A stretch of DNA of 64,000 nt, taken from the NCBI RefSeq assembly GCF_021917145.1, contig NC_061068.1:11319210-11383209 (forward strand), read 5' to 3'. Each line of letters begins with the position of its first letter. The first letter of the stretch is position 1. Made by a program: the position numbers and the translations under genes. The notes beneath the pieces were generated by a model that saw nothing but the letters and a program-made list of their open reading frames with translations, had not been told where the DNA came from and did no database searches. This DNA is from Hypomesus transpacificus (taxonomy: Eukaryota; Chordata; Actinopteri; Osmeriformes; Osmeridae). This document shows positions 33,070-60,300 of the stretch, one piece after another.

Positions 33070-36000
33070 ATGAACACCCCTCCAAACATGGCACCTCTGT
33101 CTTCAGGGCTGAGCGTCACCGCCCCAAGGGGACCCCTGTCCCCCACCACCAAGAGCTCCTTCCCCTCCCTCAACTCCCTGGCCCCGGGGATGTTTTCCCC
33201 CTCTCTGTCCAGGGGCACCCCCAGCTCAGGGAGGAGAGCTTCCAGCCCCTTCAGGAGCCCCAGCCCGTCCATCATGACCTCCCCCAAGCTGTGGCAGAAG
33301 ACCTCCATCTCCAGGCTGGCAGAGGAGTTCTTCTGGATTGGGGGGAGTATAGTGGCTCAGCCCAAATGGAGACTGGGTCAGACCGGTAAGAAGTTATTGT
33401 GAAGTTGTTATTGAGCTGCACTGTCACGTTCTTCATGTTCATCTTAGTTTGGTGAAATGAATTCAATAGACAGAAATACTGTTTTGTTTACATGTAAACA
33501 TGACCTACCGAGCATGTGTAATGTGCTCATGTGATTATGACCTATGATGCAGATCTTATTTATAGACCTACCCTACTGGTAAGCCAAACATATTTGTGCT
33601 TTCCACATATATTGTTTACGTGAAAGTGGCATGGAGTGTGTGTGTGTGAGTAGGTAATAGGCGACAGTAGACCATCACTGAAGATTAGACTGAACGATGC
33701 AGACTTGAGTGAGTCACATGTCTCAAATTCAGATTACATCCAGAGGTTACCTGCCGTGCTCCCTATTTGACCACTCCTTCTCCAACTATCGCACCCATGT
33801 GGTCAGGCATGCGTGACATCAAAGAATCACGAAACACATTCCAGACAAAATGAACACATTTTCGCAAATTAAAGGGTTTGTTGAATCATTGACAACTTCA
33901 TTTGAAAGTTGTACAGTATGGTAAGAAAGAAAATCCTATTTTTTCTAAAGCTCACTCACCATGTTAGTATTTTCAGCCAGTTATACGGTTCAGATGGTCG
34001 AGTGTCTGGCCTAGACACTGTAAAAACAGGTGCCTGATGATGTCAAATTCTGTGTGTGTTTTCTGCAGTGGAGAGGTGTATGTGTACCATGCAAACAGGC
34101 ACCCAGATGACAAAGTTAAAAGGAAAGAAGAAGGGTCTGGTGCGCTACTTCTACCTGGACGAGCACAAGTCCTGCATCCGCTGGAGGCCCTCCAGGAAGC
34201 ATGACAAAGCCAAAAGTCAGTAAACAAATGGAGAGGATAGATAAGCTACTCCGGCACCCTGCCATTTCCATTAACTGGTGGAGTCCTAAACGTATACATT
34301 TGAATTCTAGGTCTTTTCTAAAAAGGTTTCCACAAATTTGTACAAATTCTAGATTTACATTTAGTCATTTAGCAGACGCTCTTATCCAGAACGACTTACA
34401 GTAAGTACAGGGACATTGCCCCCGAGGCAAGTAGGGTGAAGTGCCTTGCCCAAGGATACAATATAATTTTGCATGGCGGGGAATCAATCCGGCAACCTTC
34501 TGATTACTAGCCAGACTCCATCACCGCTCAGCCATCTGACTCCCCTAGATACAGTAGCTGATGAATTGATCTGTTTGGACTCTTCTCCTGTCCAGTAACT
34601 ATCGACTCCATCCATGAGGTGTGCGAGGGGAAGAAGTCGGAGATCTTCCAGCGTTATGCAGACAGCCGCTTTGATCCCAACTGCTGCCTCAGTATTTACC
34701 ATGGCAGCCACGTGGAGTCCCTGGACCTGGTCACCACCAGTGGGGACGAGGCGCGTACCTGGATCACCGGTCTTAAGTACCTAATGGCGGGCATCAGTGA
34801 CGAGGACAGTCTGGCCAGGAGGCAGCGTGTCCGGGACCAATATCCTTCAAATCCTAGGGGATTTTATGGTCACATAAAGTATTAAAAGCCTATGACATAT
34901 AAATACATGACATGGCAACACATTCCATTAAGGTTGGGCTTCCCAGTGGTAAGTGGATGTGGCACAACAGGGGTAAGTGGATTTTTGGTACACAACCTTT
35001 AACTGCCTGTTTCCAACTGCCACATAAACCCACCCCTGAATTTTACTGTAGGTTTTGCTATGTCAATCCATGGTAGTTACTGTAACTTTAGTGTCAAGAG
35101 TTTCCAGTTACATGACTTCAGTAATGGACTGCTCTGTGTTGTGAGGGATGTATTGTGCGATAGCATAGATGAATGCCTTGGTCTGACAGGGTAATGGTCA
35201 TCATTCAACCTTGACAGTCAGATCACATGGCTCCAGCAGACATTCTCAGAGGCTGACAAGAATGGAGATGGAACCCTGAGCATTGGAGAGGTCCTGCACC
35301 TTCTCCACAAACTGAATGTCAACCTGCCCAAGGAGAAGGTCAGGGAGATGTTTACGGTGAGCTTCAGTTCATATGGTCATCATAGTCTAAGGAGCTGGTC
35401 TGTGTTCCTGGAACTGGTACCCGGAATTTGTATCATATAATATATCATGCAAATATATTAAATAAAGATATTATATTCAGATTGGGTGGATTGGCGTTCC
35501 CCCTTATTAACAGTGAAGTTAAAAGCAAACCGATATTGTTAGTGTCCTATAATTCTGGTATTAAAAGAAAAGCAAAAAGGCTCACAAAAGTGTACAAGTC
35601 AAAGAGGGTAAGCAATCATGCTCTTACAACCTGATCTCCAATCATCCCTGCTTAGGGTTACAGATGCCCTGTCTTGTCTGTGTTTTAGTGACATACCTTG
35701 GTAGAGGACAGGTTAGTTGAGAAGAAGGGGAGGAGGGAGAGAGAGAAGAGCTGCTGAAGCAGTCAGACCATATGCTCAGGCCTGAACAGATGGCAGAGGT
35801 TGTAATACTGCACTGAACTTGTTCAGCACAGAGCTTCCCTCTGCCTAATCCATGCTAATGCACCACACAACATGGGCTCCATTGCCTAAGCTGCTGCTAT
35901 GTGGTACAGATATCCAGAACGATGACCGTTAACACTGTCAGTTGTCTTTCTTTGTTTTGTTATGTTTTTAAGGTAACATGGTACACCTAACTAAACGTGC

Positions 36001-39000
36001 GCTGTATGATTAGTGGCATCATAATATGCATAAACAGGGAAAATAATGTTGCATCAAAAATGAAACAGTTTACATTATAAACTGAAAATTAGGAAATAAT
36101 GTATTGAGACACTTTTTAGTTGTATTAAATCATATGTATTCTATACTAGGAGGCAGACACGGATGACAACCAGGGTTCTTTAGCGTTTGAGGAGTTCTGC
36201 AACTTCTATAAGATGATGTCCACTCGCAGAGACCTCCATCTCATCATGATCTCCTACAGCAACCAAAAAGAGTACATGGACCTCAATGACCTGGCACGCT
36301 TCCTGGAGAATGAACAGAAGGTGGGTGCTGCACAAAGGAAAGTGAAGAAAAAGGGACCTTTAGGACAAAGGCCTTTATGTGTTTGTTAGCTGTGCCTCAT
36401 GTCAGTACAATAAGTCTTGCAATGTAACATCTTTTATTTACATTTTCTCTCTGAGCTGATAGTTATGAGAAAGGGATTCAACAAAAGACACCAAACATAC
36501 AAAGGTCAATGATTGAGAATTTGAATGATTGTCTGACCCTTCTGTTCACTAGATGGTCAACGTCACCCGGGAACACTGTCTGGAAATAGTGGTCCAGTTT
36601 GAGCCCTGTCCTGAGCATCTTCAACACAAGGTCCTGGGGATTGATGGTACCTAATATACAAACAACTACTAACTATTATTCCCTTTGTTATCCAATCAGT
36701 GTCATCATTACACCAGACCTTGTAGTATCATCGTCACAATCCATAAATGGAAACCAAAAGGAAACGACAAAAAGTGACCTTCTTGTGTTCAACCTGCTCC
36801 AGGGTTCACCAACTATATGCGGAGTCCAGCAGGAGATATCTTCAACCCAAACCACTACCATGTGAACCAGGATATGACCCAGCCTCTGACCAACTATTTC
36901 ATCTCCTCCTCACACAACACGTACCTGACAGGGGACCAGTTCCTGTCCCAGTCCAGGGTGGACATGTATGCCTACGTCCTCCAGGCTGGCTGCCGCTGTG
37001 TGGAGGGTAAGCTCCAGTGGAACTGCAGTTCTTCTGTGACCGCACAAACTGCGTTTTACATACAAACACTTTGCACCTTGATTGCACTGGTTTGTTCCTG
37101 GTTGGTCTCCTTTTTTTTGCCAAGACAGATAAGTGATGGACTCTCCTTCTTTCACTTCCTTTTCTTTTCCTTTATCTTTCTCGGTCAGTGGACTGCTGGG
37201 ATGGCCCTGATGGGGAACCCATAGTCTACCATGGTTACACACTAACATCTAAGATCCTCTTCAGAGATGTCATCGAAACCATCAACAAATATGCCTTTAC
37301 AAAGAATCAGTGAGTCATTGGAACGTTAGCATTGATCATAGCCCTGAAGTGAAAATCAAATGTCTCTATCATATCAGAGTTAGTCGTAGTGGGTTAGGCC
37401 TCTGTGTCTGAGAAGCAGAACCCAAATAACCTGCCGACCTCCCCCAGGTACCCAGTCATCCTGTCTATAGAGAACCACTGCACAGTGCCACAGCAGAAGA
37501 AGATGGCCCAGTACCTGAAGGAGGTGCTGCAGGACAAGGTGGACCTGACTTCCGTCAACATGAACGAGTTCAGAAAACTGCCCTCCCCCGAGACCCTGAA
37601 AGGAAAAGTCCTGGTGAAGGTGATGCAATAGACTTGCAGGATGTAGAAGTAAATGGTTTGAACTTCACCTCGGTCAGAGACGTTTGATTTTACTCAGGTT
37701 TAACCAGCAATTGTGATGTCCATTATTCTAAAGGGAAAGAAGCTTCCAGCTAACCTAGATGCTGAAGCAGAGGAAGGGGATGTATCGGATGAAGACAGTG
37801 CAGAGGAGGAGGATGAGGAGGAGGAGGAGGACATACAGGCAAATACAGTAAGACATTTACCAGAGCTTGACATGAAGGTTGAGGTTTTTTAGGGGGTGTA
37901 CCACTCAGGTAAGTGAATATGATCACTTGTCCAGACAAGTTCACAAATGTACAGGTGATTTGGCCATAAACATATGCCCTTTGTTACAAAAAAAAACAAG
38001 AACAAAATCATGTTGGATGCAAAAACTGACAAAAGCTGTGGGCTTTTCTGGTGTGAATACCTTTATATCCCCCAAGACCTCTAGAGAGCAAATGTAAGAC
38101 ATCGTGCAGCCACCCCTTCGGAGTCTAACAGAATGCCAAATGTGACAACCAAGAGGGAATTCCGAACTGTTGTATGTTTCAGGATGGGAAAGACGCCACC
38201 ACAGAAGCTGAAGCAAAAAAGAAGAAGAACTTCAGCAGGTCCTTAATGGGCAGCTTCAGGCGTAAGGTGAGTCGTCTATGTCTCCAAAACCACCGTGGGT
38301 TTGTGTCCTGAGGGTTTGCCTAAACCTCCCTCTAGCTCCCCCTCTGTGTCGGAGGCTGCGGTCCAGCAGGAGCTGACAGTAGGCTCTTGTTTCAGAGGAA
38401 AAAGAAATTGAAAGTAAAGAAGAGGCTGATGCCTGACGGAGATGTTGACCAAGAGTGCCACGGCAGGGAACGGACGCAGATTGTCTACTACACCAAGTAA
38501 ACCCACCACTCACCTACTTCTGCTCAGTGACCACCTTCAGCGTCCAGGTCTTTAAACACCTCTCTGGCTCGTTCCCTAACAAATGGTTGTCTGCTTCTAC
38601 CAGGAAGAGGAAGACCATGAGGCTGTCCCGGGCCCTGTCTGACCTGGTCAAATACACCAAGTCTGTCCGTGTCCACGACATTGAGACACAAGGTAAGAGG
38701 GAGCGACAGTGTCCTCTCTTAGAACAGTCACAGAGACCCCCCCCCCATGTCCCCAGTCCCTGTAGAGTGCACTCATGTATACGTGACCCTCTTCTTCCTG
38801 ACCGGCAGCGTACATGACCAGCTGGCAGGTGTCGTCCTTAAACGAGAGCATCGTCAACCAGATCATGCAGCTGAAGCCCGCCCAGCTGGTCCGCTTCAAC
38901 CAGCGGCAGCTCCTGAGAGTCTACCCCTCCAACTACCGCGTGGACTCCAGCAACTTCAACCCTCAGCCTTTCTGGAACTCAGGATGCCATATGGGTAAGG

Positions 39001-42000
39001 CACAAGGAGGAGAACCAGATGGAAAACGTTGTGAAAACCATTTGGACATGTTAGCATGTGCTGTGAAGCAATGCTCCACCGGGTGTACTTCAGAAAGGTC
39101 ATCAAACACAATGCGAGTCTTTGTTAATGCTTTTGAGCAGAGAGATACAAACTAGCTTAACCCTACCTTATTCAGTACCTCTGGGCCTCCGGTCAGTGTC
39201 TTCCTCTTTGGTATTAGCGCACAGTGTAAGAATAATCCGAATCTTTGACTCTGGCAGTGGTGAGTATGCAGCTGGAACAAAGTGTGCTGGACCTGGTCCA
39301 CATCTTGTGATAACCATTCTAGTGGTTACACTGAACAATAGTGCATACAGGTCTCTACAGCTTATCCACAGCTGCCACCACTGAGTTGGATACAAGTTGA
39401 TCGCAGAAAGACAGTCCTTGTGCCCCAGGTATTTTCAAAGCAGTCGCCAGTACTTTTCAATTTTGACTGTCGTGTCATGTCATCTGCACAACTAAGTTTT
39501 ATCATTCTGTCATTGTTCATTTGTATTACAAATGTCACTATAACATATATTGCCACTGTTATTGTAAGACTTTCACTAGCAGTGACAAAAATGATGATTC
39601 AGTATTTATCCAAAATAGCTGTCTGTGTGGGACAGACCTGCAGGCTCTGGTGCTCATGGTTGAACACTTGCCACTGAAGTTTTCCAAAAAGTGTTTATAT
39701 CATAGATGTTCTGTCATTACCTTTTCAGTTGCGTTGAATTACCAAACCGAAGGCCGCATGCTTGAACTGAACAGAGCCAAGTTTGCCAACAATGGTAACT
39801 GTGGATACAATCTCAAGCCCAAGTGCATGTGTAAAGGTTGGTACTCTTATGAGGATGATAACGTAGCATAGCATGATTGGGGCCTTTGGAAGGACCTTTT
39901 AACCATGCATTATCAGTCTGTGACTTTGTCTATGAGCCGATGGGAGCCTGAAATTGAAGATGAGTGGTTCAAAGCCTTGAAGGGGAGATTCAACACACCA
40001 GGATCTCTGTCATAGAATAGGGTCATGGGTATATAGCTGTTTATGGCTCCTGTGTGCTGTCTCTGTCCAGGTGCCTTTAACCCCATGATGGAGGACCCGC
40101 TTCAAGGCCAGAGGAAGACCCAGCTGGTGCTGAAGATCATCAGTGGGCAGCAGCTTCCTAAACCCCAAGACTCCATGATGGGGGACAGAGGGGAGGTGAG
40201 ATGTGTGATGAGGAGGAGGATGTTGATGAGAAGTCTATGCTGGATGGATCATGGAATCTTCTCTTGCTGCTCTAGATCATTGATCCATTTGTGGAGGTGG
40301 AGATCATTGGTCTGCCCATCGACTGCTTTAAAGAACAGACCAGAGTTGTGGATGATAATGGTGAGCACGGAAAAACCTCTTCAGAGTACACATTCAATGG
40401 AATCACCCCAATATACATTATTGCTTACGTAACGGCTTTTAAAATGTACTCCACGCTATGCCATCCATTGAGCTGGGCTACATATCTGTGTTCTGCTTAA
40501 GGGTTCAACCCCATGTGGGAGGAGACCCTGGTCTTCACGGTGCACATGCCCCAGATCGCCTTGGTCCGTTTTGAGGTGTGGGATCACGACTCGATAGGAC
40601 GAGATTTCATTGGACAGCGGACCATCGCTTTCAGCAGCATGATGCCAGGTGACTGGAGAGATGATACGATTGGCCAGAAGCTTGTGCTAATCACATGTCG
40701 AATTTGAATGTATTATATTATATCAATGTCTTTTATTGTGTTTACTTTTTATTTTACTGCGAGTGAGTACATTTGCTGAGTAATTCATGTGGATCTTTAT
40801 CTCCTTTCGAAGGTTATCGCCACATTTATCTGGAGGGAATCAAGGAGGCATCTATCTTTGTCCACGTGGCTGTGAATGACCTCACAGGAAAGGTAGAGGC
40901 TTCTCACTTATTTCTATATCCAGTTGCTCTCCGTAATATCTTATACACACTATTGATAACTTGACTCACTATTCCATTGGAGCTTTTGTAACCGAGTGTC
41001 CCTAGTAAGGACAATGCTTAAAGACACAATTGGTATAGAGACAGCATGCAAACTCTCAAGTCATTCATTTCATATGGGTCACCGATGTTCTGTTTTCAGT
41101 GCGTTACTTAATCACAGCTTGTGTGTTTTGTTTTGTAGGTCAAGTCAACTAATGCTGTGAAAGGACTGATCAAAAAGGCCACCAAACACACCAAGGGCCA
41201 CAAGAAGCAGCAGGCGTCCCTGGACTTCTCCACACACTCCTCGGAAGAGGGGCGCGGGGTCCGCTTTCCCAAAGACCTGGACTCCTTCTCCCAGGACAGC
41301 AGGAACTGCAGCATGTCCTCCAGGGCACTGCCGCCTGCGTTCAGGGCCTCCCTCCACCAGGGGGCGATGAGTGAGCCAGTGAAGCGCTCTCACAGGGTTC
41401 AGATTAAGGACTCTCTAGAGAAGAGGAGGGGCATTCTCAGGATATCCACCTCCTCCAACCCTTGGGAGGCCACCGCCCACTGCATTAAAGAGGGCAGCAC
41501 AGATCTGGAGAACTCGTCTCAGTCCTCCTCTCAGGTCGACAGTCCACGGATTCAGGCGAGATGCCCGGAGCCAGGGCTTCAGCCTCGGACTCCACCGTCG
41601 CAGCGGTCACACCAGGACAGCCCTGGGTCAGATCAGGTGTTTGAGTGGCCCGAGCCAGCACAGACTGAGGAGTTCAAAGATGGAGAACAGACAGAGCAGC
41701 CTTGGGACTCTACTGGGACAATGTCTGTTTCAGCTGTGTTAGAGGTCCTGAGTAGGCCTGAACCTGAGCCACAGCCTCCTTCCCTGCCCCAGGTCCAGCC
41801 CCAATCACAGCCCCAGGTCCAGCCACACCACCAGCCCCAATCACAGCCCCAGGTCCAGCCACAACACCAGCCCCAGTCCTACCCTCCATCACAGCCCGAG
41901 CCCCTATCAGACCACAAGCTCCAACCAGAGTGCCAGGCCCAGCAACCCAAACCTAAATCCATCCCCCAGCCCCTGGTAGCACCGTCCTCTCCACTCCGGG

Positions 42001-42508
42001 TCCGACGGACTCTGCAGACGCCCCCCACCCAGCAGCCCCCCACCCCCATACGGAGGACGGCCCGCTCGCGAAGCTGTCCCCGTAAACAGCCTGCCTCGCC
42101 CCTCACCCCCGCAGCCAATCGCAGGTACGCCGGCCACTGGCAGGGCCCTCCCCCACAAACCCTCCCCCACGGTGGCCACGCCAAGCAGGTGAAGCCCCTA
42201 CCCAACGGACTGGGTCTGTCTGACAGCGAGTCCAGCAGCGCGGGCAGCATGGAGAGCCTGGAGCTCCTGCCCTCCCGTGTGCCGTTCGACGGGGCCAGGG
42301 GGGACGGCACCCTGCAGAGGCAGATGAACGCCATGTTCGACGAGAAGATGATGGAGATCCGCAGCAAATCGCCGCTCTTTTTCAATGGTGAGATATCGCG
42401 ACCGTCCCAGTGGAAGCCTGAGTTGGTGACCGTGTGAAACGGTCGGGGGGTTGAAAACTGTAATGATGTCTGATGCCGTCTGTCTTTGCAGATCGCTCCA
42501 CCTTGTAA
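33070..42508 (+). CDS. plch2: Phospholipase C eta-2
   Basis: PLC-eta2 hydrolyses PIP2 to IP3 and diacylglycerol and responds strongly to calcium, mainly in neurons. The 21 coding exons are 33070-33385, 34069-34215, 34596-34839, 35227-35356, 36150-36320, 36553-36646, 36803-37006, 37189-37309, 37448-37619, 37734-37847, 38183-38266, 38396-38496, 38604-38692, 38809-38994, 39729-39836, 40071-40195, 40276-40360, 40502-40648, 40813-40892, 41139-42387 and 42492-42508. They total 3,984 bases in frame (1,327 residues). Domains in order: PH (about 107-215), EF hands (DKNGDG at 246-251), X box with SSHNTYL (catalytic His405) and His450, an acidic linker, Y box (about 640-760) and C2 (about 775-905). The tail is Ser/Pro-rich and ends RSTL, a possible PDZ ligand. 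Intron 3 is AT-AC. PLCH2 fits better than PLCH1 by the linker and the neighbouring ski. Confidence 0.95.
34355..34544 (-). mobile_element. tRNA-derived SINE in plch2 intron 2
   Basis: Read on the minus strand, it starts with a tRNA-like head (GGAGTCAGATGGCTGAGCGG, then an AGTAATCAGAAGGTTGCCGG B-box region) and ends in the tail motif AGAGCGTCTGCTAAATGACT. It is flanked by a 6-bp direct repeat, CTAGAT, at 34349-34354 and 34545-34550. The family looks tRNA-Leu-like; the name was not assigned. It fills half of a 380-base intron and ends about 50 bases from the exon 3 acceptor. Confidence 0.85.
34840..35226 (+). other. U12-type AT-AC intron in plch2
   Basis: The intron starts ATATCCTT, the minor-spliceosome 5' splice site consensus, and ends CAC. 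A branch-site match, ACCTTGAC, lies about 13 bases before the end, as expected for U12 introns. Splicing CA|A restores a Gln codon followed by the family Trp (RDQ|WLQQTF). No GT-AG alternative gives the conserved protein. PLC genes are among the families reported to carry U12 introns. Confidence 0.92.
41790..41890 (+). repeat. Coding Q/P minisatellite in plch2 exon 20
   Basis: Within the C-terminal tail the units CCAGCCCCAATCACAGCCCC and CAGGTCCAGCC recur, encoding repeated PQSQPQVQP-type peptides. Length is probably polymorphic. Confidence 0.85.
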
Positions 42509-44280: not shown

Positions 44281-47200
44281 TCAATCTCCCTGAACATCTA
44301 ACCAAATAGTTTCACAGCCAGAGACAAACGCAGGCGTCCCTGGCATTACACATACAGTACATGTGTGCCAGCATGTGGCTCGTACCCTCTGCTCCCCAGC
44401 ACTGCTCCGGGTCTTGGAGGTGAGCTCCAGGAGAGCCAGCAGGACCCCCAGCCCCAGGCCCAGGCCCAGAATCAGGAACATCCCCTTGAGGCTGTGGGGA
44501 TGCAGGGCCGAGGCTTTGGCCGTGTCGGTCACACAGCTGCTGGCCCACCACTTACTGCGCAGGTAGGCCAACTCCCCAGCCTCACTCAGCTGGAGGATGG
44601 CCACACTCAGGTTCTTTAGTAAGGGAGAGCCTGGAGGAGGACACAAACAAGGATTTATTGACCTGATTTCATTTCCATTCCTGTACACTCGTACATAAAT
44701 GAAGTCAGTATACAATAACTAAGAGAAACCGAAGAGCAAATCGAGTAGAAACGGGTGTTATTTGAATTTCTTAACGACCCATAACGACCCATTCATTTGA
44801 ATCAGGTGTATTAGAGCCCTGAGGACCAGGGTTGGGAACCACTGCCATAGACAGCGGGCTCACCTAGCGTGGCTGCGATGCTGTAGCCCCTCATCCCGAT
44901 GACCTCGTGGGCTCGCACAAGGTCACAGTGGCGGGCCACCGCCAGGTCAAGGGAGACAGACTCCCCAATAAAGGCAAAGTTGCCCTCCCTGGCTCGCCGG
45001 ACACCCTCGTCCATTGATGAGACAAAACTCTTGCTTCTCTCCATGTGCTCGTAGATCCTGCGGTAGGCTGGATTGTTTGAGTTCTACAGAAGACGGAGCA
45101 AAACAAAAAAGAGGAGAACCGTCAAACCAGAGGAGCAAAGTACGAGTCGACTCTTATAAGCATGAGGGGGCCATAAGTGAGTAGGGGGAGATGGGGGGGG
45201 GAGGGGAAAGGGTTCCCTCACCTTGAAGAAGGCTAGTGTCGAGGAACCAGCCAGGGTCCCAAACTCAATCGCTTCCTGGTTGGCCAAGTCCTCAAACCCT
45301 TTCACCGACAGGGAGGTGGAGTCAGAGGACTGGGAGGAGCTCAGGTTGGAGAAGTAGCAGGCCAGGAGCACGAGAGCAAACAGCCACCAGGTGCAGCAGA
45401 TGACCCGCCCTGACAGAGCCTTAGGGTGGGGCCCGGCACCTGAACATCATCACAGAGAACTGAACATCATCACAGAGAACTGAACATCATCACAGAGAAC
45501 TGAACATCAGCGCACCACTGTCTACTACTGAAACATTCAAAGGAAAGCACTGAAAACCAAGAAATAAAACTTATTATTATATATATAATATATATTATTA
45601 ATATATATATATATTATATATATTAAAAATATATATAAATAATACCTAATTAACCCCAATTAACTTTCGGAACTGTCAAACTATAAACAACATTTCTTTC
45701 TTAACAAAAGAGCATCATCTGTAGATTTTTTTTTCCGGAGTTTGTTCTGTTCCTCAACGACACAAGCTAGGACAATACCTCTGGCCTAATTGGACCATTT
45801 AAGCCCCTCCCCCCCCCATGATCAAGGAATTAACAGACCTGACGGTGGTGATATTCAATGAAAGCCTTGCAAAAGCATGAACATCATCTCATATCAGAAT
45901 CATTTGAAGATAGTTGAGACCTTGTAAGGTGAGGGCTCCAGCAGTGTACCACAGGCTGTGCAGCAGGGTGAAGCTGTTCTCCTCTGTCTGGGGCTGGCTC
46001 CATTCACATGGGCTCAGTCTGGTCACACACCCACCAACCAGAAAAGTTTCAACACATTAATTTATGTCTTCAATCATAAAATGACCCCCTTGTCTAATAA
46101 AACATGAATTTGGATCACAAGCTCAGACGAGATGGATAGAACCAGACAAACCAACGCCCCACCTGGCTACAATGAAGATGCAGGCAGAGGTTCCCAGGTA
46201 GGCCAGGAGAATGCCCCCCCAGGTCTCTGCTGAGAAAGGACTCAGGAAGTCAAAGAAGCCGGCCTCCTCCACGATATCCTTCTTCAGCAGAATGCTGATT
46301 CCTGTCTGCATGAATGGCTTGGTCATGGCCACAGCCTTCTCCCTCGCCGCGGTCAGGGTCAGGGGAGCGATAGCCAGGTCCGCTTCCTGCAGGGACATTA
46401 TACAAATATGGATACCACAAACACAAACACACACCAAGATGACGTCTTAGCAGCCCTGGCTGACCATTTCGAATCACACAATCTGTCAGAATACAACCAA
46501 AACGATTCTGGCTGACTAGGTAGTAGGTACAAATGCAAAATGGGGTCCTGAAGTGCGTTCTCACCCCTCTCACCACCTCTCCGATCATGCCGTTCCAGTC
46601 GCCATTGTCATCCTGACGCCCGTAGTTGTTGTCCTTCACCAGGTGAACGCTGTATTTGAAGCCGAGCTTCTTGGAGAGCTCCGACAGCAGGTCCATGCAG
46701 TAGCCCTCCAGCTGGGAGCCTTTGGACATGGTGTATGGGTCTTGCTGTAGGAGGAGACATCCCGAGGCTTTATTGTCTGGTCATCCTTTTTCGATTTGTT
46801 CTTAATGCATTTTGCGGGATAAATTACACGCTTGAGGATTGATATGCTATTACCTTAATGGTTGTGATCTTCAACTCTGATCTCACTAAGGAGGAAAAAG
46901 AGGTTGCAGTGGAATTGAGAGTTAACATCGGAACGCTAAAGGTCACTTGATAACAGCATGGATTCATTCAGCCTTCCCTTGTGTAATTGGTCTTTCATTT
47001 ACACAAATCAATTACACTACTTCTTTGCAATGGAGCTGATCGGTGTAACAATTCTAATAAGCTATGGATGGATCCAGTGAGGACTAGCAGCCACTGCTAA
47101 TGATGCTTTAGCCTTTTGTCTCCTGTGACACTGAGACTTTGTCAAAGTGTCTTTCCGGACTTCTTGCTGGCTCGACATCACTGAGTCGCTGACGTTGTTC

Positions 47201-48220
47201 TTTTCTGGGCAGGAATGCCCTTCCATATTTAGCAGGGGAGAATCAAAGGGGCCTTTGTGCGGTGCTGTGACCATCCCCAGAGTCACTGACCCCTCCACAG
47301 ATAGAGAGGTGAACGTGGGGGTGCATTGACTATGCCCCCCCCAGCCACCATTCTGGTTTCCGGTATCCTAGCGATCTGGCCGCTCTCCTTTCTCCCAGTT
47401 GAAAGTGCTCCATTACAACACCCCCAGTCTATAAACAGCCACAGACCACTGGAGTGGGGATCCAAATCATGACAAAGCCGTGGCGCTGTGGGGTATGGAG
47501 GGCAGTCAGAGAGTATCTAAAGCCTTGATTCAGGCTAGGCCCTCTGGGCCACAGCCATGCCACAGGGGTGATCTTGACACCCATTGGATCCTCCTATTCA
47601 GGATGTGACACGCATACAAGCTCTTCAGGGACCTGTCACTTTTTTTCCCATCTCTCAAACACAGGCCTTCTTGTTTGTTGCTTTGAATTGATTTATTACC
47701 ATTTTTGTCTGCATGTCAGCTGGCTTGCTTCCTTTTCTATCAGACGAGGTGGTGCTGTGTGCCAGGCAGGATGTAGCCCATAGCACCCCTGGAGCCCCTG
47801 GCTTTGAAGCCATGCCCAGCTGACAGTTTCCCCCATTTCTGACACCACGGGCCCAAGACATGTCACCACATCCAGCAGTGAAGACATGAGGAGTCTGGCA
47901 GAGACTTGACTAGCTAACTGTCAATTTGCCACCACAGAAACACAACAAGTGCTTTGAATGGTCAAACTGTTTAAGTATCGACCATTAACAACTAATGATT
48001 TCTCATATTACTCCGTTTTCATCTAGGATATCTCTCCCATGCCAAGAGCGCTGTTCGACCTTTTGACAGTGGCACAAATAATTTTTCTCCATAAAAGGGT
48101 AAATGTATAGGGTAAATCTTAACTCAGAACAGAGTAGACATTTGACTTACCTGCAGTGCAGGTCCCAAAGTTCAGAAGATGCACCATGGTGCACAGGATG
48201 AACCCTAAAAGCATCCTCAT
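44281..48220 (-). CDS. Kainate-binding-protein-like ionotropic glutamate receptor
   Basis: A short membrane glutamate receptor of the kainate-binding protein class (fish, frog, chick), which lacks the amino-terminal domain of ordinary subunits. Coding exons, 5' to 3': 48220-48151, 46885-46854, 46744-46565, 46386-46163, 46018-45921, 45439-45222, 45083-44864, 44630-44281; total 463 codons, close to the class size. Residues 1-23 form a signal peptide. S1 holds TIKQDPYTM and the ligand residues Pro102, Thr104 and Arg109; S2 holds Ser268-Thr269 and Glu315, so glutamate-site residues are intact. M1 is about 146-168, and the pore loop has Gln201 at the Q/R site (GALTLQGAGPHPKAL). M3 is about 213-234 and M4 about 397-418. 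The usual SYTANLAAF gate motif at the M3 end is replaced by CYFSNLSSS. Such proteins bind kainate strongly but mostly do not form channels alone. The exon 5 donor (GTCTCA) is weak. Confidence 0.9.
45441..45509. repeat. 20-bp tandem repeat at a splice acceptor
   Basis: Three full copies and a partial copy of TGAACATCATCACAGAGAAC abut receptor exon 6 (starting at 45439 on the minus strand). On the coding strand every copy carries the acceptor-like TGATGTTCAG, so the true acceptor has been copied upstream. Confidence 0.92.
45571..45655. repeat. (TA)n-rich low-complexity tract
   Basis: Nearly pure A/T sequence with TATATA runs in receptor intron 5, self-complementary over much of its length. Confidence 0.85.
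46886..48150. other. Intron 1 of the receptor gene
   Basis: About 1.26 kb between the signal-peptide exon and the first S1 exon. No repeat or exon was recognised. The 5' side (48236-48520) probably holds a 5' UTR intron and a non-coding first exon: there is an acceptor-like TTATGCAG just before 48236 and a donor-like GTAAAG near 48400 on the minus strand. Confidence 0.45.
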
Positions 48221-49822: not shown

Positions 49823-50704
49823 CTAGTCGTCCACCTTGCGCGCCAGCCGACAGAACGTCCAGTGGTGCTCCACGGTGTTCTCGTTGGCCCGCTCGCTCAT
49901 GTGGTGCACGCGCGTGTTTCTGATGGTGAAGCCCTGCTTGGAGATGTACTCCACCAGGTGCACCCTCAGAGACACCTCCTGGTGGTAGTCGCACGGCCCG
50001 AAGGTGAAGGACACCTGGAAGTCCCTGGTGTCCATCATGTGTTTGTTCCACTTGGTGAAGCTGTTGGAAATCCCCTCCAGAAGAGCGTGCACCTTGGTGG
50101 TGATGGTGACCTGGGTGATGATCACCGCCACGGGGTTGGAGTACTTGGATAGCTTGCGGGTGCTGGAGAGCTCCACCACCTCTTCGAAGGTGTCTAAAGG
50201 GTAGAGGGGCTTGGTGTCCCCCAGACACTGGATAAGAGGCTCGATCTGGTAGAAGTCGGCCTCTTTGCGGAGAAGCTCCATTTCCTTGAAGTCGAAGGGC
50301 AACGTCAGCTCGGAGGTGCGGAGAAAGTTGAGTACGTAGCGGAAGAGTGGGCCGTCTCGGTCGATGAAGTAGTGTCCCTTGGCGTCCCTGGTGGTGGGGA
50401 AGTCTCCACGGAACATGGCACCCAGCATGGAATCAGGGTAGCGCTGTAGGGTTGACAGGGACGTGGTGTACAAACAGCCTCCCACGTTCAGCATTACTGG
50501 ATCAGTCATCTGCACAACAGGGGTTTACACTGGGTTTTTAGGGATATACGTGAAACCAAAACTACCATCCCAAAGACTAAAAGATGGTCGGTCACAGTAA
50601 AATGTATTTGATATGGAGTTTAGTAAAAGGAGCTGTTCACAGTATTTGGTTGTGAACATCCTCTGGTTGAGACTCACCATATATCGCCAGTCTCCATTCT
50701 CCAT
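49823..50704 (-). CDS. kctd6: BTB/POZ protein KCTD6
   Basis: KCTD6 is a cytoplasmic BTB adaptor for the CUL3 ubiquitin ligase; reported substrates include HDAC1 in Hedgehog signalling and small ankyrin-1. Coding exons are 50704-50678 (MENGDWRYM, donor GTGAGT) and 50509-49823 (acceptor GTTGTGCAG), total 237 residues, equal to the human length. The BTB/T1 fold begins at MTDPVMLNVGG, followed by the RYPDSMLGAMF and FIDRDGPLFRYVLNFLR blocks typical of the family. The C-terminal domain ends FCRLARKVDD. The short first coding exon confirms the start, since an ATG also opens exon 2. It lies next to pdhb, as in human. Paralogue suffix not assigned; KCTD21 is the next-best family match but the sequence favours KCTD6. 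Confidence 0.96.
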
Positions 50705-52390: not shown

Positions 52391-55358
52391 TTAAACATTC
52401 AGTGTCTTTTTCACTGAAAAGATGATGTCTTTAATCTGGGGAACGCTGTTGTCTTCCAGAATCTTAGCGTAGGGCATTGGGATGTCTACACCGGTCACTC
52501 GAGTGGCAGGTGCATCCAAGTAGTTAAAAGCGGGACCTGCAATAAATGGGATGGTAAAAATGTAAGATCAGATTCAAAGATTTTACTGCTACCATTTAAG
52601 GCAGTGTATAGAACATACAGTCAACACCTTATTCCATTAACAATGTATGGACGATGCCTTACATTCAAACCATTTGCATCACCTACAGTTGCATCAACAG
52701 GCAATAGTCAAATCACTTACCCTCCATGACCTTGGCGCAAATCTCAGCTCCTACTCCAAACTGTGGCCATCCGCCCTCCACCGTCACCAGATGGTTGGTC
52801 TTCATCACACTCGCCTCAATGGTCTCAACATCCAGAGGTCTGATGGTGCGCAGGTTTATGACCTACAGTTGGAAAAGTTGTGTTTTCATTCATTCTACTA
52901 ATTTCATATTTCTAATGTTACTGAGGATGACGATGATGATAGCAATGCATCTGTCTTACCTCACATTCAATCCCGTCTTTGGCCAAGACGACAGCAGCGT
53001 CCAGACAGTGACTAACATACCGGGAATGTGTCACGAGACTAACGTGAGTACCTGCAACAAACAGCATGGATAAATAGACAAACTGTCCAGGATAATAACT
53101 CAAAATTGAATATGTAAGTCTTGGCAACTAACGAGAATGGATAAGTAATAAGAGTTTGAGCATCAGACAAGTTTGAAAATGTATTGCTTTCTTTTTTCCC
53201 CTCACCCTGTCTTTCAACCTTGGCTTTTCCGATGGGAATGGTAAAGTCCTTGGACTGGGCCTCCTCAGACATTTCAAATGCAACTCCATACATCAGCTCA
53301 TTTTCCAGAAAGACCACTGGACAAAACATTCAGAGACGATAGAGTTTGATTTGATTTCTCACCATGGAAACAACGTGAATGTCTTAATCATATCAAACAA
53401 ATCCGGTCCCATCTTCCTATGAGCAGTTCAACTGGCAATTTCTCAACCGCTCACGGTTTATAACTACTTAGAAAAAACATTCTAACCGGGATTGTCATCT
53501 CTGATGGCTGCTTTGAGGAGACCCTTGGCATCTTCAGCGTTCCATGGACTCACTACCTTGAGGCCAGGACAGTGGCCATACCAGGCTGCGAAGCACTGGG
53601 AATGCTGGGCAGCCACACCCGCAGATGCACCGTTAGGCCCCCGGAACACGATGGGGACAGACTGACGGCCGGCCGACATGTAGTAGGTCTTAGCTGCAGA
53701 GTTGATGACTTGGTCGATGGCTTGCATAGAGAAATTAAAGGTCATGAACTCGCAGATTGGCCTCAGTCCTGCCTGGAAATAGAAAAAGGACAAGCTTTTT
53801 TTCACTCCAACAACAGAACAGATGGGTCACATGGAGGAGCAACATCCTTGTGTCTGTGAGTGACTTACCATTGCAGCCCCGACTGCAATACCAGTGAACC
53901 CCATCTGCAGGGAGGATGTCAGACAGTTAGTGACAACAAACCAAACAAAGCATTACAGTGGCAAATCTAGCAGCAGCCATTTTCTTTTACCTCTGTGATA
54001 GGCGTGTCGATGATGCGTTTGTCTCCATACTTCTTCCAAAGCCCCCTGCTCACCTGTGAGTTCACAGTTCAGGGATGTTATCAGTTACGGATGTTATCAG
54101 TTAGTTAGTTAGTTGGACGGGAGTCAGATGGCTGAGTGGTGAGGGAGTCGGGCTAGTAATCAGAAGGTTGCCGGATCGATTCCCTGCCCCGCCAATATGA
54201 CGTTGTGTCCTTGGGCAAGGCACTTCACCCTACTTGCCTCGGGGGGAATGTCCCTGTACTTACTGTAAGTCGCTCTGGATAAGAGCGTCTGCTAAATGAC
54301 TAAATGTAAATGTAGTTACAGTTTGTTAACCCACGTCATAAATAACACCGATAAGGACACATTTTACGTACAACTGGAATTATATGAAAAATGAAACCCT
54401 ATCCTAATTTATGAATATCTACAGAACTAACCCTGCTAAAATCACATGCTCAGATGCAGTCATTTGTTACCGAGTACACAATCACATCCAATATAAGTCA
54501 GAAAGTGTCAATCAATGTTATTCTCTCACCTTGTAGGCACCGTCATACTGTGCCACTTCCTCCCCCAGCAGGAAGACTCTCTCATCCCGCTCCAGCTCCT
54601 CATCCATGGCCTGGTTAAGAGCATCTCTGACTGTTACCTGAGTTAGACAAGAAGATGAACACCATTCACATCTTCATGTCATAACTAATATTGACATGAA
54701 CATAAATGTATCTTATGTTTATTAATCTACGTCATCTACTCCGGCAGTGGAATGTCCTGCTACCCTCGCTATCGTTGTTTATCTACAAGAACTGATGCAA
54801 AGCCCAAGCTTCATGAATTCAACAAAATAAAGATGAGTCTATCAACTTAAAAGACATCCCAAGTCTCCCGGAAGTTCCAGGAACTTCCCTGAAATGAGTC
54901 TCTGCAGGTTGGGATGTCTGACTTAAGTTAAACGCGGCACAGCCAACTACAGATGTATTGTCTGTCCTGACCGGACTGAAACGATTAGACAGCCCGGTTG
55001 GCCAACCACAATGGCGACATCGTTGAATTTATGTTTAAGTACATACTATCCTACCAGAAATACACTGTCACACTGTCATCGCTTCTTAACATTTTCAGTC
55101 AGTATGAATTTTATAGTTTTGAAGGTTAGCACTCTAACTAGCTTTAAGCTACATCTTCACATTGGAAAGCCACCTGCACTGAAGCCGGTGACGTTTTGTG
55201 GAACTCCCTGCGCAGGACAACCGATACGGCATTCTGTAGAATACAAAAGAAAGGCACATGTCAACATGTAATCACCACAAGCTATACACATTTTAATGTT
55301 TTAAAATAAATCTGATGCATACCCTCCCTGAGCGCAGAAAACACCTCAACGACGCCAT
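52391..55358 (-). CDS. pdhb: Pyruvate dehydrogenase E1 subunit beta, mitochondrial
   Basis: The beta subunit of the alpha2-beta2 E1 enzyme that uses thiamine diphosphate to decarboxylate pyruvate in the mitochondrial matrix. Ten coding exons, 5' to 3': 55358-55323, 55233-55174, 54637-54530, 54053-53991, 53904-53869, 53772-53487, 53316-53206, 53051-52960, 52862-52721, 52536-52391. They sum to 1,080 bases, 359 residues, the same as human. The first two exons encode an Arg/Ser-rich targeting peptide ([12 protein letters not shown]...). The mature chain starts about [18 protein letters not shown] and contains [15 protein letters not shown], the [20 protein letters not shown] block, [18 protein letters not shown], and [10 protein letters not shown] near the C-terminus. 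No key segment is missing. A SINE sits in intron 3. Identity is essentially certain. Confidence 0.98.
54119..54312 (+). mobile_element. tRNA-derived SINE in pdhb intron 3
   Basis: The head GGAGTCAGATGGCTGAGTGG carries an A-box-like motif and GGTTGCCGGATCGATTCCC a B-box, as in tRNA-Leu-derived SINEs. The body contains CCTTGGGCAAGGCACTTCAC, and the tail reads AGAGCGTCTGCTAAATGACT then AAATGTAAATGTA. It is the same family as the copy at 34355 in opposite window orientation. Target-site duplication was not clear. Confidence 0.88.
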
Positions 55359-57398: not shown

Positions 57399-60300
57399 TT
57401 AAATGTGGGGGGTACTGCGATCGCAGGTCTCAGCCCTCTTCAGTTTTCCTTTGCTGAAAGTCTGGATGGAGCTAAGCAAAGCGGTGCGGGTCACTCCATT
57501 AGTAGACGGTGGGGGGTTGACGGACTGGCCTGGGTCACTGGCCGGGGGCGGGGCCGGGGGCGGAGGAGGCGGGGGTGGTGGAGAGACTCCTGCATGGATA
57601 GAACACAACTGTCAGACACTATAGTCTATGTCAGTATATTTACAGTCCATTCAACCAGCCTGTGAAGAACTACCCATTTAACCTCACTGTGGTAGATCCT
57701 ACAGCAGGCAGTGCCACAGTAGTGAATAATATATAATCCTATAATGACATTTCAATACTCTTACATCGGTTTGACCAAATGTTCTGGCTAAAACCCTTAT
57801 TATTTAGCTATTTTTTTTTAATAAACACACACATAACCATGACATAGACATCACAATCTACAATGAAAACGGAATAGCCTAAATCCACAGGGATTTAGGA
57901 TTCAGTTATATGTGACAGCTGTTGAGACACAATTGCTCGAAGGTGGGTGACAGAAGGGAAGGTTTTTTCATAGAATCATTGCAGATTGTGACATTTTAAA
58001 GTTGTATACACCCTTTTCAAAGCAAGCAAAGCCAAAACAGAACGATGACAAGATGAAAATTGGCTTCCTCCATGGTATTCGTGCTTAAAAGAATAGTTGT
58101 CACTGATGTTAGTAAAGAAGAATGGAGAACGATTTGTGATATATTTCTTATACAGCAAATGAAAAGCTTGACCTTGAGAAAACAATAACAAATGGACTGC
58201 AGACTGGCATGCAGAGCTGCTTTGACAGTGTACCAGGCAAAAGAAACTTGCTGCAAACTAGGGTATACCACAGCTTTAAAAATGAGAGGAATCATTTATT
58301 TAATTTACTTTACCCAACATGTTCAAAATGGGGCATGCTCTACTTGGAAGACAGCACAGGGAGGAAAAGAGAGAGGTAGATGAGGGTTATTGTTCATTTG
58401 ACATTCAGCAGTACAATCAATCATATCGTCAAAACGACCAACTTCAACAGTATGGAGAGACACTTCGTGGAGAGGAATAGGAATGAGAAGAAACTTGAAA
58501 TGGATGGAATAAGACACACAGTAACGACATCACCTACATTATAAACAGCTCATGTTAAGACACCGGCTATTAATAGAATATCTGCTCAGACTCATGTATG
58601 TACTTTAGACTATAAGGGCACAAAAACATGCATCCTTTTGATCAAAAAACCCTGGTGACACATTTAGTAACATTGTATCCTTGTCATATCCTTGATCATA
58701 TATTTTATGGACTTACAGACATCTAGTGTAATAAAGGGGAGTAGAGGTTATAGTTGTTTGCTCCTGTGCCAGTTTACGAGTGTTCTGTCTCTTTTTGACC
58801 ACAAGGGGGAGCACATTAACCACAACTCCAACCAGAGCCAACACAAACAGTTCCCATTGAAAGAGAGCTGCTCGTCAGCTCAAACACTCAATAAGCATCC
58901 ATCATGTGCTGAGCCAGCATTCTCACAGGGATTGGTTTTGATTGGTTTTGTCTAGTGACTGAATACGATTCAATAAAGCATTAGGTTGTACAGTACAGCA
59001 GTAGCCGGGCTGAAAGGGGTGTGTGTGTGTGGATGTGGGGGGGGGGGTTATAGGTCAAAACGGACGGAAGCATCTAGAGCACCAACCTGAGGTGGATGGG
59101 GGTGTTGGGGAGGATGGAGACGTGGGTGGGGAGCTGGCTCCTGAACCTGGAGGGCAGGGGGAGGGGAGGGAGAAAGCTGTAGGCTAAACTACTAATAAGC
59201 ACACATACATGGGCTCTAATATTGGAGAATATATGATATATACAGTACCAAACTTTTGACTGGTACTGTATATGTATTTTTTTTTATAGAAAAATTATTA
59301 ACCATAGAACCAACATACCGGAGTTGTTGTTATATTTTACAGTCAGGTCCTCCTCGTTTTCATAGGTTGACTGCCTGGACTTCTGCAAGTAGATTAGTGA
59401 TATAATTCTGCTAGCTACAACAGCCATATCAGCACACTCATAAGGCCAGACAGTTCTGTAACAATGTAGGTCTTTTAGTCATTTAGAATGTCATTAACTA
59501 TAATCAGTATCAATACAACAATTCAACGTCATCGGGACAGATTTGGCCAGCAGGAGGGCAGACACAATGGGGCCAAGAAGGCCAAACAGATTAAAGCTTC
59601 AGAACTCTCTCTCACTGCTCTCTGTCTCACACTGCTCTCTCTCACACTGCTCTCTCACACTGTTCTCTCTTACTGCTCTCTCACACTGCTCTCTCTCACA
59701 CTGCTCTCTCACACTGCTCTCTCTCACTGCTCTCTCACACACTGCTCTCTCTCTCACTGCTCTCTCACACTGCTCTCTCTCTCACTGCTCTCTCTCACAC
59801 TGCTCTCTCTCACTGCTCTCTCTCACACTGCTCTCTCTCACTGCTCTCTCTCACACTGCTCTCTCTCACTGCTCTCTCTCACTGCTCTCTCACACTACTC
59901 TCTCACACTACTCTCTCACACTACTCTCTCTCACTGCTCTCTCTCACTGCTCTCTCTCACACTGCTCTCTCACACTTCACTCTCACACTGCTCTCTCTCA
60001 CACTGCTCTCTCACACTGCTCTCTCTCACACTGCTCTCACACACTACTCTCACACACTGCTCTCACACACTGCTCTCACACACTGCTCTCACACACTGCT
60101 CTCACACACTGCTCTCTCTCACTCTCGCACCCTCTCTCACTTTCTCTCTCACTCCCTCTCACTCTCTCTCGCTTAATCTCTATCACACTCTCTCTCTCAC
60201 GGTTAAGAGGCTTCTCTACCTTTCTGGCCAGGATCTTCCTCTTCTTCTTCTCCTCCTCTGATCCATGGTGGGACTGTGCTCGCGTCAACCTCCTGTGCTG

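Follow-up and report, generated by a model that had tools for sequence, protein, structure and literature searches.

The closest described system for the intron analyzed here is the AT-AC subtype of U12-type introns, which makes up about 22-24% of the minor introns of human and mouse (PMC6717393). In a review, an optimum branch distance of 11-13 nt is given, and mixed AT-AG or GT-AC ends are described as disfavoured (PMC3584512). Intron 3 of plch2, the subject of this study, is like this subtype in its donor, its branch site, its branch distance, its AC end and the lack of an evident pyrimidine tract. The sole departure noticed is that both leading T residues of the TTCCTTRAC consensus are absent from its branch site.

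Minor introns have also been counted in phospholipase C (PLC) genes, 60% of which are listed as minor-intron genes (PMC6865273). That passage concerns the gene family studied here; PLCH2 is not among the genes it mentions, and intron positions are missing from it. Among the papers covered by the literature search, none linked PLCH2 or PLCH1 with the minor-intron terms used, and a search for PLCB, PLCD, PLCG or PLCH with U12 yielded, to judge from titles and abstracts, no pertinent paper in the 15 of 111 matches listed. The human PLCH2 gene is presumably entered in the minor-intron databases. That PLC genes can carry minor introns is established, and the AT-AC intron of plch2 is a further, well-supported case.

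The plch2 gene and the signals of its third intron

The window, meaning the whole 64-kb stretch of DNA that was analyzed, occupies 11319210-11383209 of contig C9 in a 437-Mb genome and contains plch2 (phospholipase C eta-2), labelled eta2b where it has to be distinguished from an eta-2a copy. The features needed below are as follows, with positions counted from the first base of the window.

33070-42508, + strand: plch2 coding region, 21 exons, 1327 aa (model hand-built from splice sites and homology)
34596-34839, + strand: exon 3, end of the PH domain, terminating ..CGG GAC CA in phase 2 (gene model, Pfam)
34840-35226, + strand: intron 3, AT-AC, U12-type, 387 nt, phase 2 (sequence, gene model, paralogues)
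34840-34848, + strand: 5′ splice site ATATCCTTC, 8/9 to RTATCCTTT, with C at +5 (consensus match)
35207-35215, + strand: branch site AACCTTGAC, 7/9 to TTCCTTRAC (consensus match)
35225-35226, + strand: 3′ terminal AC (sequence, gene model)
35227-35356, + strand: exon 4, in which the EF-hands begin, with Trp237, opening A TGG CTC (gene model, Pfam)

The reading frame of the model is open throughout, and its introns comprise 19 of the GT-AG type and one AT-AC intron, intron 3. The protein is up to 83% identical to public fish eta-2 proteins (909 residues submitted), and its named nearest relatives are from bony fish. Pfam domains were found in the order PH_12 (107-218), EF-hand_7 (236-300), EF-hand_like (298-383), X (392-536), Y (644-757) and C2 (778-879). 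The presence of PH, EF-hand, X, Y and C2 domains together with eta-2 nearest relatives identifies plch2 as a phospholipase C eta. A 36-base tandem repeat at 41786-41876, within exon 20, encodes a Gln-Pro-rich part of the PLCH2 tail, and a UnaL2-type LINE 3′ element (Rfam RF00436) is located at 34359-34412 on the - strand, in intron 2; 428 bases separate it from the AT-AC intron downstream.

In terms of its surroundings, plch2 lies downstream of, and in the same orientation as, what we take to be a SKI-like gene (3186 to about 29544, + strand). Frames on the - strand presumably belong to an ionotropic glutamate receptor (44400-48200), a BTB/KCTD protein (49823-50515) and a pyruvate dehydrogenase E1 beta (53482-53805), which they resemble. 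A second UnaL2-type LINE 3′ element (RF00436) is present at 54252-54305 on the + strand. In a long array of 13/28-base tandem repeats at 59605-60200, two frames stay open for about 250 codons, which is probably due to the repetition only.

An earlier note on this DNA had placed an AT-AC intron at the PH/EF-hand junction of plch2, with a minor-spliceosome consensus at its 5′ end, AC rather than AG at its 3′ end and a branch site at the appropriate distance. The observed intron is confirmed and its coordinates are exact to the base: in the hand-built model exon 3 ends at 34839, the intron opens with ATATCCTTCA at 34840, and the junction formed is 34839/35227. The domain assignment is also correct, because the PH_12 match stops at residue 218 and that of EF-hand_7 begins at residue 236, so that the intron lies between the PH domain and the EF-hands. 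It divides the codon of Gln236 (CA/A, where the slash marks the boundary) directly ahead of Trp237, and its removal joins these two residues. Only two other cut points, at +1 and +2, are equivalent, and neither is GT-AG.

The signals are likewise as the note described them. The donor matches RTATCCTTT at 8/9 positions, compared to 2-5/9 for the remaining 19 plch2 introns, and the intron closes with ATCAC at 35226. It contains ACCTTGAC, of which CCTTGAC occupies 35209-35215, and a distance of 12 nt separates the branch A at 35214 from the final base of the intron. Judged by eye, the stretch before the 3′ splice site, GTCATCATTCAACCTTGACAGTCAGATCAC, has no pyrimidine tract. The branch 9-mer alone is not discriminating, because introns 7, 12 and 19 contain matches of 7, 8 and 7 of 9, but these are positioned 24-34 nt from the intron end. 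The donor octamer by itself is also of little weight, since the 437-Mb genome contains ATATCCTT 14,736 times and the same pattern in reverse 10,038 times. In the window, with both strands counted, there are 4 occurrences of ATATCCTT (3.1e-5 per position) and 19 of CCTTRAC (1.5e-4 per position). From these window frequencies, and allowing for three equivalent cut points and 13 branch positions, our own arithmetic gives a joint chance of about 2e-7 for donor and branch site at a junction whose place homology had already determined.

The genome search identified one full-length U12 snRNA gene, which scored 128.9 bits (cut-off 53) and has the branch-pairing sequence GUAAGGA. We infer that intron 3 is spliced by the minor spliceosome. 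From established minor-splicing biology, U11/U12 would recognise the donor and the branch site together; the donor ATATCCTT would be read first by U11, which would then be replaced by U6atac, U12 would pair with ACCTTGAC, and cleavage would take place at the AT and AC ends. The major spliceosome could instead remove an intron with these ends, as reported for human SCN4A intron 21, and AT-AC introns of this class do exist (PMC2831892). Those in sodium channel genes carry G at +5 according to the same passage, whereas intron 3 and five sister introns in eta and delta genes have C at +5 and CCTTRAC-like branch sites, and removal by the major spliceosome is therefore very improbable. All the signals of a U12-type AT-AC intron are present within positions 34840-35226, and it is nearly certain that the prediction is right by which the minor spliceosome removes these bases and so brings Gln236 and Trp237 together.

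Alternative junctions and public gene models

Candidate junctions joining exon 3 to exon 4 were listed as GT/GC-AG, AT-AC/AG and GT-AG/AC pairs, with a minimum spacing of 60 nt. None of the 1815 GT/GC-AG pairs gave the conserved product, while a single one of the 1899 AT-AC/AG pairs did, namely 34840/35226; this was the sole pair to do so in any of the classes listed. Cutting as AT-AG at 34840/35217 would preserve the frame (RDHQITW) and was rejected since the AG of this pair sits 3 nt past the branch A.

Homologous proteins were collected in two lists. The first consisted of the best 120 of 5358, from a scoring that covered the 7983 candidates sharing most words; the second consisted of the best 120 of 1489, of which 118 were new, and was drawn to longer, full-length models. 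Gln-Trp was found in an ungapped stretch in 92/120 of the first list and not in the other 28. In the second list it was found in 116/118, across fish, reptiles, birds, amphibians and coelacanth, and 2/118 depart. The statement that the splice restores a conserved Gln-Trp was thus upheld among these best-120 lists. Seven 'lgn' contigs of 5.5-6.3 kb (P0011, P0024, P0025, P0148, P0155, P0178 and P0210) encode the whole protein with Gln-Trp joined cleanly, and these are taken as transcripts of other species because such lengths could not accommodate a gene of this structure, which in the window extends over 9.4 kb.

A GT-AG intron might be used at this place instead, for example with the donor at 34829 (CGT/GTCCGG) and an acceptor at 35236 or 35239. 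These pairs keep the reading frame open, and some public models look like such a choice, as they end ..TFSEAD without Trp-Leu (P0014, P0016, P0082, P0090, P0108 and P0116). The same pairs remove the conserved RDQWL, however, against the ungapped Gln-Trp of the listed homologues and the failure of every GT/GC-AG pair in the enumeration to give the conserved product, and use of a GT-AG intron has hardly any probability left. The AT-AC junction at 34840/35226 is the reading retained.

The public models were also counted for errors, as it had been claimed that standard gene finders go wrong at such an intron. By a stricter rule applied to the first list, 24/120 models are aberrant at the intron 3 junction, compared to 15/1680 at 14 other conserved junctions, rates that hold for the listed eta-2 proteins only. 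Fisher's test gives p 6.6e-20, which is a guide only because the proteins share ancestry and the control omits five junctions. The omitted ones, dropped after the run, are junctions 10, 11, 12, 19 and 20 (aberrant in 111, 26, 15, 91 and 120 of 120); they fall within the X-Y linker or the tail, regions of variable length. With model errors at the junction counted in this way, the warning about gene finders now stands with numbers behind it: there is a clean, quantifiable annotation failure, affecting one fifth of the 120 eta-2 models listed as nearest, compared to less than 1 in 100 at the control junctions.

The form of the errors could be read in part from the proteins. RDQYP, which fits translation of CA plus the donor RTAYCC as codons, is present in 11/120 models and RDQYL in 1/120. 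The sequences ..TWLQQ or ..TWIQQ, which fit translation of the AC acceptor as codons, are present in 16/120, and RDQYP and TW occur together in three models (P0042, P0064 and P0078). The TW tally, like that of MW, was made by eye from printed sequence rows. Three fish models of the first list (P0055, P0067 and P0074) read ..CMWLQQ or ..FMWLQQ ahead of the EF-hand; this corresponds to ATG TGG and implies that their intron ends in AT instead of AC, which would make it AT-AT. Among the non-canonical minor introns of animals, AT-AT is ranked second in frequency (PMC10639083).

The homologous codon in sister PLC genes

The genome was searched with the residues around the junction, giving 66 matches, from which 16 PLC loci and one extension were fetched. 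The codon before the conserved Trp was readable in 10/16 of the loci (L043 and L047-L051 were not readable there). Loci were labelled delta or gamma according to how closely they resemble the solved chains of delta-1 (1djg) and gamma-1, and the PLCL label is our own assignment. The introns read at this codon are listed below.

eta2a L039: CCA/ATATCCTTCA..CAC, 935 nt, AT-AC, U12-like
delta L041: ATATCTTTAC..TCCTTGAC..CAC (inner stretch also given as GTCCTTGAC), 290 nt, AT-AC, U12-like
delta L044: ATATCCTTAC..TCCTTAAC..CAC (inner stretch also given as ATCCTTAAC), 1305 nt, AT-AC, U12-like
delta L042: GTATCCATTT..TTCTTTGAC..CAG, 136 nt, GT-AG, U12-like
delta L040: GTATCCTCCT..CCCTTAAG..CAG (inner stretch also given as TCCCTTAAG), 162 nt, GT-AG, U12-like
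gamma L046/L056: GAG/GTACAACACA, ending TTCCAG, 157 nt, GT-AG, U2-like, same codon
gamma L052: GAG/GTACACACAG, ending TTCCAG, 211 nt, GT-AG, U2-like, same codon

In each of the five eta and delta sisters that could be read, codon and phase are those of intron 3 and the intron is U12-like, with AT-AC ends in three and GT-AG ends in two. The two gamma introns match the U12 donor at 3 and 4 of 9 positions and the U12 branch site at 5/9 or fewer. Counting that of the window, eight introns were read at the homologous codon and all are in phase 2. The intron is absent from this codon in 3/3 PLCL-like loci (L045, L053 and L054), and no plch1 was recognised in the search with junction-flanking residues. 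The comparison with other PLC genes that the earlier note had suggested therefore bears out a U12-like intron for the eta and delta genes (5/5), but not for the gamma genes, where both introns at the same codon are U2-like (2/2).

The eta2a locus was 95.6% identical over 183 residues to the closest eta-2a protein compared. In its branch site, TCCTTAGC, 18 nt separate the A from the AC end, and the site is weaker than those of the other sisters. With this deviant branch site, the eta2a intron (L039 1660-1700) may be weakly spliced.

Intron retention and the history of the intron

The consequences of failed splicing were computed from the gene model. Retention of intron 3 would bring the following stop codon into frame.

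34883-34885, + strand: in-frame TAA if intron 3 is retained (translation)

The predicted retention product has 250 aa, 14 of them from the intron, and consists of the PH part without the catalytic part; skipping of exon 3 or exon 4 shifts the frame. A slow minor intron could act as a regulated switch, in which retention lowers enzyme output and could yield the 250-residue PH-only protein. The early stop after 14 intron-read residues would fit this, as would the report that the minor introns retained in zrsr2-mutant zebrafish appeared shorter (median 451 bp) than the non-retained ones (PMC9501576), intron 3 being 387 nt. Transcript decay is nevertheless the ordinary expectation, since the stop at 34883 is upstream of 17 later junctions, and a regulated switch is considered unlikely. 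It would be compatible with removal of intron 3 by the minor spliceosome, which remains the main reading.

In the passage cited for subtype switching and U12-to-U2 conversion, a pathway is proposed in which AT-AC U12 introns become GT-AG and then U2 introns (PMC2831892). AT-AC, GT-AG U12-like, U2-like and absent states are also found at one codon here, but among paralogues of one genome rather than among orthologues across species. The intron would be old and would predate the split between the eta and delta genes. Its AT-AC ends would have been retained in eta2b, eta2a and two delta genes, with a switch to GT-AG, still U12-like, in two other delta genes; the same ancient intron would now be U2-type in two gamma genes and missing from the PLCL-like genes.

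Position -1 is G in both U2-like gamma introns and A in all six U12-like introns, the codon at the intron being AG/N (Arg/Ser) in the gamma genes and CA/N (Gln/His) in the U12 forms. A later study proposed that G at -1 favours conversion and tied this to phase 0 (PMC7367187); in the PLC genes the pattern is found with a phase-2 intron, in contrast to the phase 0 of that model as given in the cited passage. The -1 G pattern is a lead and no test, because two genes are set against six and all are related by descent. The reverse direction, with a U12 origin in the ancestor of the eta and delta genes, is possible. Our tentative proposal, held with somewhat less than even confidence, is that one ancient PLC intron survives within a single genome at every stage of the proposed change from minor to major, the converted gamma introns having the -1 G that the -1 G model predicts. 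This codon, for which eleven related genes of a single genome show four outcomes, is useful for testing how minor introns change into major introns.
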